Shown: positions 164 through 2,392 of the stretch, in pieces
Position numbering within the stretch: the first letter of the stretch is position 1
Layout of the letters: every line of letters begins with the position of its first letter
NCBI GenBank assembly: GCA_022601155.1
Contig: JAHZJA010000255.1
Location: 1 to 46,427, forward strand
Direction of reading: 5' to 3'
DNA: 46,427 nucleotides
Source of the DNA: Deltaproteobacteria bacterium
GTDB lineage: Bacteria > Myxococcota_A > Polyangia > Nannocystales > Nannocystaceae
Translations under genes and position numbers: made by a program
Notes under the pieces: generated by a model
What the model was told of the DNA's origin: nothing
Databases searched by the model: none
What the model saw: only the letters and a program-made list of their open reading frames with translations

Positions 164-1516
164 ATGCGAATCCGCCACGACTACCACCGACTCGACGAAG
201 AGCAACGCCAACGCTTCGTAGGGGCGTTGCTCGCCCTCAAGGATGACGGGCGCTACGACGCGTACGTTCACATCTACCAGCGCGCAACCTGTTGGGCCCG
301 GCGGGGTCCCGCGCTGCTGCCCTGGAATCGTCAGCTGTTGCTCCGGTTCGAGCAGGACCTGCGCAGCGTGGAGCCCGACGTCTCGCTCCCCTACTGGGAC
401 TTCACGTCCGACCGTTCGTCGCAGTCGACGCTGTGGAACGACGACTTCATGGGCGGTGATGGACGACCCCACGACGGGATGGTGCTGACCGGGGCCTTTG
501 CCACCGAGGCGGGCGCCTGGCCGCTGGCGGACGATGGCTTCCTCGTGCGACGCCTCGGCCACGACCCGGTCGCGCGGGATCTCCCCACCACGGAGGATCT
601 GGAGCACGCTCTGGATGCTGCGGAGTACGACATGGCGCCATGGGATGCCTCGGCGCCCGACGGCTTCCGCAACCGCATCGAAGGCTGGGTTCGAGGTCCG
701 GCGTTGCACAACCGCGTGCACGCATGGGTGGGCGGGACGATGGCCCGTGACCGTGCACCCGACGATCCACTGTTTTGGTTGGTGCACGCCTTCATCGACA
801 AGAAGTGGTCGGATTGGCAGCGTCGCCATCCGGGGGCGGAGTATGTGCCAAAGGGGGAAGGGCCCGCCGGGCACAACCTCGACGACACGCTGTGGCCTTG
901 GAACGGCGGCGATCGACCCGAGGCTGTCCCGCCATTCGATGGCGCTCCGGAGCAGGTGCGGCCCCGCGATCTACTCGATCACCGAGTCCTGGGCTACGCG
1001 TACGACACCGATCCCGATCTGGGTGGCGGCCCGACGACCACGCGGGCGATCGGCGAAGAAGAACCGACGATGACGACGTTGGCGGTGGGGGAGGAGGAGC
1101 CGCCGATGACGACGTTGGCGGTGGGTGAGGAGCAACCGCCCGGGCCGACGACGACGGCGGAGGGTGAGGAAGAACCGACGATGACGACACTGGCGGTGGG
1201 TGAGGAGGAGCCTCCGATGACGACACTGGCGGTGGGTGAGGAACAACCGCCCGGGCCGACGACGACGGCGGAGGGTGAAGAAGAACCGACGATGACGACA
1301 CTGGCGGTGGGTGAAGAGGAGCCGCCGATGACGACGCAGGCGGTGGGAGAGGAACAGCCGCCCGGGCCGACGACGGCGGTGGAGGGTGAGCAGGAGCCTC
1401 CGATGACGACGTTGGCGGTGGGTGAGGAAGCGAGCCCCGTCACGACGGCCGCGGAAGGCGAGGAGCAGCCGGGCCCGGGTGGCGGCGGCGGCCGGGGTCC
1501 CTTTGGTGCGTTCTGA
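164..1516 (+). CDS. Degenerate tyrosinase fused to a multicore graspetide (plesiocin-type) precursor
   Basis: This 450-residue protein has two parts. Residues ~1-280 align by eye over their whole length with Streptomyces-type tyrosinases: GRYDAYV (29-35), LLPWNR (51-56), LPYWDF (75-80), YDMAPW (155-160), LHNRVHAWVGG (181-191) and DPLFWLVHAFIDKKW (201-215). The CuB ligands H182, H186 and H208 are present. The three CuA ligands appear replaced by Y38, R46 and N55, so a normal dicopper site is unlikely. After a GGGP linker (287-290), residues 291-435 hold twelve TTxxxxEE motifs such as TTLAVGEE and TTTAEGEE, followed by a Gly-rich tail. TTxxxxEE is the known core of plesiocin-type graspetides, in which Thr hydroxyls and Glu carboxylates are joined by esters. 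An ATP-grasp ligase follows 3 bases downstream. There is no signal peptide, so modification would be cytosolic. The start is supported by alignment from the first residues. Function as a precursor is inferred; a tyrosinase with a repeat tail is the alternative. Confidence 0.88.
   Translation: MRIRHDYHRLDEEQRQRFVGALLALKDDGRYDAYVHIYQRATCWARRGPALLPWNRQLLLRFEQDLRSVEPDVSLPYWDFTSDRSSQSTLWNDDFMGGDGRPHDGMVLTGAFATEAGAWPLADDGFLVRRLGHDPVARDLPTTEDLEHALDAAEYDMAPWDASAPDGFRNRIEGWVRGPALHNRVHAWVGGTMARDRAPDDPLFWLVHAFIDKKWSDWQRRHPGAEYVPKGEGPAGHNLDDTLWPWNGGDRPEAVPPFDGAPEQVRPRDLLDHRVLGYAYDTDPDLGGGPTTTRAIGEEEPTMTTLAVGEEEPPMTTLAVGEEQPPGPTTTAEGEEEPTMTTLAVGEEEPPMTTLAVGEEQPPGPTTTAEGEEEPTMTTLAVGEEEPPMTTQAVGEEQPPGPTTAVEGEQEPPMTTLAVGEEASPVTTAAEGEEQPGPGGGGGRGPFGAF
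1034..1468 (+). repeat. Twelve tandem TTxxxxEE graspetide core motifs, including a three-copy 37-codon repeat
   Basis: The repeats encode residues 291-435 of the tyrosinase-fused protein. The cores start at residues 292, 304, 316, 329, 341, 353, 366, 378, 390, 403, 415 and 427. Two flavours alternate: A (MTTLAVGEE, usually followed by E/Q-P-P) and B (PTTTAEGEE), in the order variant, AAB, AAB, AAB, A, B. Each AAB block is 37 codons (1064-1174, 1175-1285, 1286-1396). Blocks 1 and 2 encode identical peptides but differ at eight codons, all synonymous. Block 3 carries L392Q and a degenerate B core (TTAVEGEQE) in which the second Glu is Gln. Confidence 0.92.
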
Positions 1517-1519
1517 CCG

Positions 1520-2392
1520 ATGCTGTTGATCGCAGGCGGATCGCGCGATCCCAACCTCGATCGCATCGAGGACCGAGCCCGTGCCCGCGGGTCGTCGGTC
1601 GTTTCGTTGCGGGTGGGCCCAGACGAGGCCCCGCGGGTGCGCTGGGATCTCGCCGGAGATGCGCTATGGGTGGACGATGAGAGGCTCCGCCCCACGGCGA
1701 TCTTCCTGCGGCACGACGTGTTTGCGGCGATGAAGGACGCTCGGCCCGCGGTTCGGCAGCGTGCGCTGGCTTGGTACACGCTGATCTCGGGGTGGGCACT
1801 GGCTCACGAAGACGTGCGCGTGTTCAATCGAGGCTCGCGCCAGCACGGTGCCAACAAGCCGCTGGCGCTGCACCTGGCTCGGGCCCATGGGCTGCAGGTG
1901 CCTGCGACCGCGTTCACCAACGACGTAGGCGCGCTGGAGCGCACGCCCGATTGGCCCCGCGTGGTCAAGCCCATCAACGGCGGCTCCTTGTGCGAGCCGC
2001 TGACCGATGTGCTCGCCCGGACCCCCGCACGGGATGGGGCGGCTGCGTCACCGGCCATCGTGCAGCAACGCCTCACTCCGCCCGAGGTCCGCGTGTACGT
2101 GGTCGGGCAGCGATTGTTCGCGTTCTCCGTGGTCTCCGAGCACCTGGACTACCGGGCATCGAACGACGCCCGGGTGGAGCGATTCGAGGGCCTCCCTGCC
2201 CCCATGGGACGCGCGCTGATCGGGTTGGCCGGGAGTCTCGGGCTCGACTGGGCGGCGGTGGATCTCAAGACCGATCCCTCCGACGGGCAGCTGCGGTTCC
2301 TGGAGATCAACAGCGCACCGATGTTCGTGGCGTTCGATCCCCCGAGCGCAGGGGCGCTGGTCGACGCGATGCTCGATTGGTTGTGCGCTTGA
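1520..2392 (+). CDS. ATP-grasp ligase, probable graspetide macrocyclase (omega-ester forming)
   Basis: This 290-residue RimK/MvdD-like ATP-grasp protein is about the usual length for graspetide ligases. Visible landmarks are NKP with K113, VVKPINGGS with K150 (nucleotide-binding lysines and the small loop), PEVRVYVVG (188-196) as the central strand pair, and the metal-binding strand LDWAAVDLK (242-250) followed by LEINSAP (261-267). Family members phosphorylate Glu/Asp side chains of a precursor and let Thr/Ser or Lys attack, forming omega-ester or omega-amide bonds. The gene starts 3 bases after the TTxxxxEE protein stops, which suggests translational coupling and makes that repeat tail the obvious substrate. 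No protease, acetyltransferase or dedicated exporter is visible immediately downstream; the next gene converges from the other strand. The family assignment is strong and the substrate is inferred. Confidence 0.9.
   Translation: MLLIAGGSRDPNLDRIEDRARARGSSVVSLRVGPDEAPRVRWDLAGDALWVDDERLRPTAIFLRHDVFAAMKDARPAVRQRALAWYTLISGWALAHEDVRVFNRGSRQHGANKPLALHLARAHGLQVPATAFTNDVGALERTPDWPRVVKPINGGSLCEPLTDVLARTPARDGAAASPAIVQQRLTPPEVRVYVVGQRLFAFSVVSEHLDYRASNDARVERFEGLPAPMGRALIGLAGSLGLDWAAVDLKTDPSDGQLRFLEINSAPMFVAFDPPSAGALVDAMLDWLCA

Follow-up and report, generated by a model that had tools for sequence, protein, structure and literature searches.

At the left end of a 46,427-nucleotide stretch of DNA (hereafter the window), which begins at base 1 of contig C850 in a 10.8 Mb draft genome (72% complete, 1,522 contigs), a protein that joins a tyrosinase fold to twelve plesiocin-like cores is followed, after a gap of 3 bases (1517–1519), by an ATP-grasp enzyme that is very probably a graspetide-type synthetase. 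We read this pair, with moderate confidence, as a two-gene graspetide-type system for the stapling of proteins in which the synthetase would recognize its substrate through a follower at the C-terminus. Published accounts of graspetide precursors portray short peptides that begin with a leader; the novelty here would lie in the layout, with putative C-terminal recognition, swappable cargo and many cores, and not chiefly in the tyrosinase, which looks catalytically dead. The features on which this reading draws are collected in Table 1.

Table 1. Positions of features of the gene pair in the window and of its phage sister systems; L-numbers denote loci of relatives.
Feature	Position	Strand	Basis or remark
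3′ end of a gene, cut by the contig edge	1–159	+	stops 4 bases upstream of the precursor's ATG
Precursor/substrate protein, 450 aa: degenerate tyrosinase-fold domain, 12-core tail, C-terminal PFGAF	164–1516	+	ORF call
Tyrosinase-fold (MelC2-like) domain, residues 1–282	164–1009	+	PF00264, PDB MelC2, AF2/Foldseek
Degenerate CuA site: Tyr38 (275–277), Arg46 (299–301), Asn55 (326–328)	275–328	+	alignments
Retained CuB histidines: His182, His186, His208 (3/3)	707–787	+	alignments
Twelve plesiocin-like cores (11 exact TTxxxxEE, one TTAVEGEQ), 111-base higher-order repeat	1037–1465	+	
Gly-rich linker after the last core	1466–1498	+	similar linker in L002, L020, L047, L048
C-terminal PFGAF, proposed recognition element (follower)	1499–1513	+	C-terminal [PA]FG recurrence, ThfA RPFG
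ATP-grasp graspetide-synthetase-like enzyme, 290 aa	1520–2392	+	ORF call, profiles, fold, tree
Phage enzyme and large core protein	L064:12425–13875, L067:2655–4355, L070–L083		enzyme mostly 0–20 bases before partner

The fused precursor

The whole precursor ORF is a single open frame with coding-like GC3 throughout, and the fusion of tyrosinase fold and core array is real. Residues 1–282 match PF00264 (E = 6e-30) and, by sequence, the MelC2 tyrosinases in the PDB (E = 1e-70), while an AF2 model (pLDDT 68) returns MelC2 tyrosinases as its best PDB fold matches (TM ~0.79), bearing out the initial annotation, which had described a tyrosinase-like protein fused to a core array. The likeness to MelC2 in fold and sequence (residues 1–248) extends to the three CuB histidines but not to CuA, where the ligands His38, His54 and His63 of the reference Streptomyces tyrosinase are replaced by Tyr38, Arg46 and Asn55 (0/3 His); all three CuA histidines are present in each of the six further tyrosinases used for comparison, which come from this genome, from its family and from Nitrosospira. 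The domain thus has a tyrosinase fold but lacks the six-histidine CuA plus CuB ligand set of a type-3 copper tyrosinase. With every CuA histidine lost, it would be without a dicopper centre and would constitute a pseudoenzyme for dicopper chemistry. Ordinary tyrosinase activity is not to be expected of it, and an active tyrosinase is not supported; the domain may still hold one metal ion.

Two roles for the domain were considered and rejected. Plant BURP-domain peptide cyclases likewise combine a copper-protein fold and core motifs in one protein and act on Tyr/Trp; BURP-like self-oxidation is dismissed here, as the window tail, unlike their substrates, has no Tyr or Trp (nor Cys or His) and CuA is lost; the tail also has an ATP-grasp partner of its own. 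The idea that every such system includes a tyrosinase is likewise set aside, since one is found at only two of nine bacterial loci (fused in the window, a divergent neighbour in Nitrosospira). Copper-protein folds occur at three of the nine: a Cu2_monoox_C domain upstream in L048 (5909–7120), the Nitrosospira tyrosinase (L002:6178–7362) and the domain in the window. Together with a copper amine oxidase reported for graspetide group 41, this copper theme is a weak lead only. Another tyrosinase of the same genome (L014:1–2544, G000:C1175) has an intact CuA site and carries a large C-terminal extension, in an ORF that runs to 848 aa or more. In the literature searched, no paper contained both ‘graspetide’ and ‘tyrosinase’.

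The tail spans residues 287–450, its very C-terminal end reading GGGGGRGPFGAF, a feature that, like the CuA losses, the initial annotation had passed over. Twelve tandem TTxxxxEE cores had been claimed for it; the number and the array hold, with the correction that eleven copies are exact and one is TTAVEGEQ, and the register is ambiguous in two TTTAEGEEE cores. Both the spaced Thr/Ser and Glu/Asp of known graspetide core patterns and the plesiocin TTxxxxEE motif are present. The array is not due to chance, as the tail contains 13 overlapping string matches compared with a mean of 0.225 and a maximum of 3 in 2,000 shuffles of its own composition. The stricter pattern TTxA[VIM]GEE occurs 11 times in the whole 10.8 Mb genome: 8 matches fall in this array and the other 3 in a single plesiocin-type cluster, and the reversed control has none.

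At the DNA level the array is a tandem repeat whose higher-order unit of 111 bases corresponds to three cores. It is a young DNA repeat, yet its protein motif is retained in distant relatives: cores across relatives of the Myxococcota class and Proteobacteria share the Thr pair and an invariant Gly-Glu-Glu, although their linkers have diverged. Directly behind the Thr pair stands Leu in six cores of the window and Lys, Met, Arg or Phe in others across the relatives; if this residue is the P1 position, as in plesiocin, it would set specificity.

The ATP-grasp enzyme and its bacterial relatives

Profiles and fold agree with the initial annotation of the next gene as an ATP-grasp enzyme with graspetide features. 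TIGR04187 is its best NCBIfam match (8e-19), followed by MvdD (2e-10) and MvdC (1e-7); all three matches lie below curated cut-offs, which marks the enzyme as a divergent member, and the match to rimK_fam is weak (7e-4). Its sequence matches that of PsnB (7drm, E = 7e-19), which is also the top fold match of its AF2 model (E = 7e-22, pLDDT 84), ahead of PruB, MdnC and then RimK. Conserved motifs include VKPINGG (1964–1984), LDYR (2144–2155), FLEIN (2297–2311) and PMFVAFD (2318–2338). Encoded with its precursor, the enzyme therefore resembles graspetide enzymes more than RimK by profile and fold, the two measures by which RimK was compared. In a maximum-likelihood tree, it groups with eight other bacterial and eight phage enzymes in a clade (UFBoot/SH-aLRT 100/100) that is separate from both the plesiocin-type and the TgmB-type enzymes, which places the synthetase outside the plesiocin-type clade.

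In all nine bacterial loci the enzyme lies directly after a protein with TTxxxxEE or close variants, often with overlapping stop and start codons, and the loss of the tail with retention of the ATP-grasp gene, a case raised in the initial annotation, was not encountered among them. The N-terminal parts of these proteins differ widely. An Acetobacteraceae MAG (L001) has a Calx-beta domain (7e-7) before six cores and ends in DPFGA; Nitrosospira NpAV (L002), with an intact tyrosinase gene divergently upstream of the pair, has ten residues before thirteen cores, the first at residue 11, and ends in NPFGEF; and a member of the window's own family (L020) has 28 residues, thirteen cores and the end NPFGAF. 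Two members of the window's class (L048 and L047) carry a PrcB-like domain (PrcB_C, 0.005 and 4e-6, respectively) with nine to ten cores and end in PFGAY and PFG, respectively. L047 also has a frameshift within its core repeats (L047:4011–4040, G157:C219), either assembly error or decay. Two members of the window's phylum (L053 and L054) are 53-residue proteins with two KTMAIPEE cores each and the end KAFGEK. Finally, an alphaproteobacterium (L099:824–1462, G1195:C34) begins with a weak, sub-threshold Nif11-like leader (E = 0.0025), followed by seven TTLALGEE-type cores; it is the only bacterial member without a C-terminal PFG, and its linkers repeat RPFD/RPWD/RPSD.

A C-terminal [PA]FG is found in eight of the nine bacterial members (PFGAF, PFGA, PFGEF, PFGAF, PFGAY, PFG, AFGEK and AFGEK) versus none of 11 plesiocin-type controls. 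Judged from these sequences, cores and enzyme are constant across these loci and the N-terminus appears interchangeable. The system is rare and patchy: when the orders of Nitrosospira (349 genomes) and of the Acetobacteraceae MAG (250) were searched, the seed genomes alone came back. Class-level searches added one member, and the ATP-grasp sequence had only distant matches among plasmids and phage records. No conserved protease or exporter stands beside the pair in the loci read. In the window, the truncated gene at the contig edge may belong to the same operon as the precursor; given this truncation, the upstream side could hold a protease or an exporter. The convergent downstream neighbour (2438–4243, −) encodes a PAS hybrid histidine kinase with a receiver domain and has no evident link to the pair.

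Proposed C-terminal recognition and its alternatives

We propose that the ATP-grasp enzyme would bind the C-terminal PFGAF as a follower in place of an N-terminal leader, phosphorylate Glu side chains and esterify them with the Thr pair of each TTxxxxEE core, proceeding through the Gly/Pro-linked cores in the manner of PsnB with plesiocin, with up to about 23–24 esters formed. Since one core has Gln in its last position, 23 is a safer prediction than the ~24 of a full set. The tail is very likely the substrate of the enzyme, nested Thr–Glu esters are likely to form, and the C-terminal PFG probably serves as the recognition element. Recognition at this end would leave the N-terminus free for any folded cargo, which would allow that cargo to differ or be missing in relatives; L002, which has no room for a leader, provides the strongest single argument in this direction. 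The product would remain in one piece, the folded domain carrying a string of rigid bicyclic hairpins that act as a many-headed serine-protease inhibitor, although we advance the tethered state and the inhibition only tentatively.

The usual graspetide recognition motif, Phhx(1,2)h, was placed in the N-terminal leader by Makarova and colleagues (PMC8939145). A leader with this motif and a GG-type site, usual although not strictly defining features, is absent from the window precursor, which has PFGAF at its C-terminus instead. TgmA-type leaders contain RPWALRF/APFALGF, and in the leader of ThfA (fuscimiditide) the putative recognition sequence is RPFG, which lies within the required segment (PMC13003496). 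Johnson and colleagues found that moving the ThfA leader to the C-terminus kept activity (PMC13003496); indeed, ThfB accepts a C-terminal leader and cyclizes constructs of up to 258 aa (PMC13003496, PMC12291112). By analogy, the PFGAF end fits a natural version of this engineered layout. Fuscimiditide and other TIGR04187-type graspetides resemble the window system in the TIGR04187 match of the enzyme and the RPFG-like motif, but the natural fuscimiditide motif is in an N-terminal leader and was placed at the C-terminus by engineering, whereas that of the window is natively C-terminal; fuscimiditide differs further in its Thr–Asp stem-loop core and methyltransferase partner. Against C-terminal recognition, the motif is not universal, being missing from L099 and from the phage partners described below. 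L099, with its leader-like domain and no PFG, may be a complementary exception. Because the eight sequences share ancestry, conservation of PFG could instead mark a C-terminal sorting or stability signal.

The pair could also represent an ordinary RiPP with an unusual carrier, in which cleavage would free the modified tail as a peptide inhibiting proteases with several heads and the domain would serve only as a bulky carrier or leader. Every graspetide that had been characterised by 2022 inhibits proteases (PMC8939145), L099 with its Nif11-like N-terminus resembles a normal RiPP precursor and the window's own genome has a standard plesiocin-type cluster; we nevertheless regard this reading as unlikely, given that the window precursor lacks both a leader motif and a GG-type cleavage signal of the kind seen in plesiocin-type precursors (LFIEDLGQVTGG), that no protease or exporter is conserved at the loci read and that L002 has almost no N-terminal part to remove. 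With plesiocin and PsnB (graspetide group 2), the pair shares tandem TTxxxxEE cores, a single ATP-grasp enzyme and PsnB as the nearest solved fold, and plesiocin carries two esters per repeat (PMC12291112). The window pair differs in the separate clade of its synthetase and in lacking the leader of the LxxLFIEDLxxVxGG type, which is present in plesiocin-type precursors including that of its own genome; it has 12 cores compared with 4 and adds a fused folded domain and the conserved C-terminal PFG. The cluster in its own genome (L004:891–1151 and 994–2148, G000:C89) is canonical, with the leader LKELFIEDLGRVTGG, four cores, a PsnB-like ATP-grasp gene and an HlyD-like gene, and a second small precursor with TTTFARGEE lies upstream (L039:2–379).

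That the N-terminal domain itself recruits the synthetase, each precursor's domain standing in for a leader, is improbable. The initial annotation had put the folded domain in the leader's place, and L099, with a leader-like N-terminus and no C-terminal motif, would suit this arrangement; however, the N-termini within one enzyme clade are unrelated or absent (tyrosinase, Calx-beta, PrcB-like or 10–28 residues), which is hard to square with homologous enzymes, and with the recurrence of the C-terminal [PA]FG the earlier view is not supported. We consider it equally improbable that the ATP-grasp enzyme acts otherwise on an acidic tail, for example by RimK-like addition of residues to Glu with the Thr pairs left unbonded. 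RimK and graspetide synthetases are hard to separate without phylogeny (PMC8939145) and the weak rimK_fam match points the same way, but the graspetide-maturase profiles rank far above RimK, the PsnB, PruB and MdnC folds rank above it, and glutamylation would not need the Thr-pair spacing that is fixed across distant taxa. Gene decay or an assembly join, by which a dead tyrosinase gene was fused by chance to a graspetide precursor, would account for the lost CuA site, for the occurrence of the tyrosinase–core fusion itself in one draft genome only and for the frameshift in L047, but is likewise improbable in view of the coding-like single frame, the retained CuB and fold residues, the tyrosinase adjoining the pair in Nitrosospira and the other folded domains fused in other genomes.

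Phage sister systems and wider context

A core-pattern scan of viral contigs led to marine phages that encode the same enzyme clade, and a follow-up scan found 30 viral contigs. In about half of these, the enzyme directly precedes a large protein (up to 1,062 residues, in L078) with dispersed cores such as KTQAVGEDD and TTRAVGED, in general [T/K]TxAxGE[ED]. PFG ends are absent from these partner proteins and a PHROGs search gave them no name; an assignment as virion proteins would be an inference. In a second phage subclade (L084–L086 and L088–L097), no such cores were found nearby. It is conceivable, although we hold this view loosely, that marine phages use the sister enzymes to cross-link dispersed cores within large phage proteins while bacteria hang a portable C-terminal tag, made up of core array and PFG follower, on unrelated folded domains, the clade having moved from peptide products to protein stapling.

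Among described graspetides, groups 34, 35 and 41 of a 2026 RODEO survey have long or large precursors with repeated motifs, and group 41, which is taxonomically diverse, co-occurs with a copper amine oxidase (PMC13097080). The window clade is similar in precursor length and repeated motifs, by description, and may be one of these groups; no copper amine oxidase lies beside the window-clade loci read, unlike group 41, and the survey passages considered make no mention of fusion to folded domains.

If the clade has indeed moved to protein stapling, it would represent a general enzymatic modification of proteins by side-chain esters with natural C-terminal substrate recognition. The twelve-core tail would be a many-headed inhibitor tethered to a protein. 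A natural C-terminal tag with interchangeable N-terminal cargo would mean that the arrangement built for fuscimiditide in 2026 already exists in nature, and such a family would be a source of compact synthetases and of a brief recognition tag with which proteins could be stapled. It would also raise the question of what role ester-stapled tails have on bacterial proteins and, in the sister systems, on those of phages. Proteins of this kind may escape searches tuned to short precursor peptides. Outside the clade, a small protein that appears dodecin-like by eye (no Pfam match) ends in two TTMAVGEE cores (L034:682–2055/L057, G030:C61); it lacks a C-terminal PFG, its ATP-grasp neighbour comes from another branch near the plesiocin group, and it is a second, independent kind of domain–core fusion.
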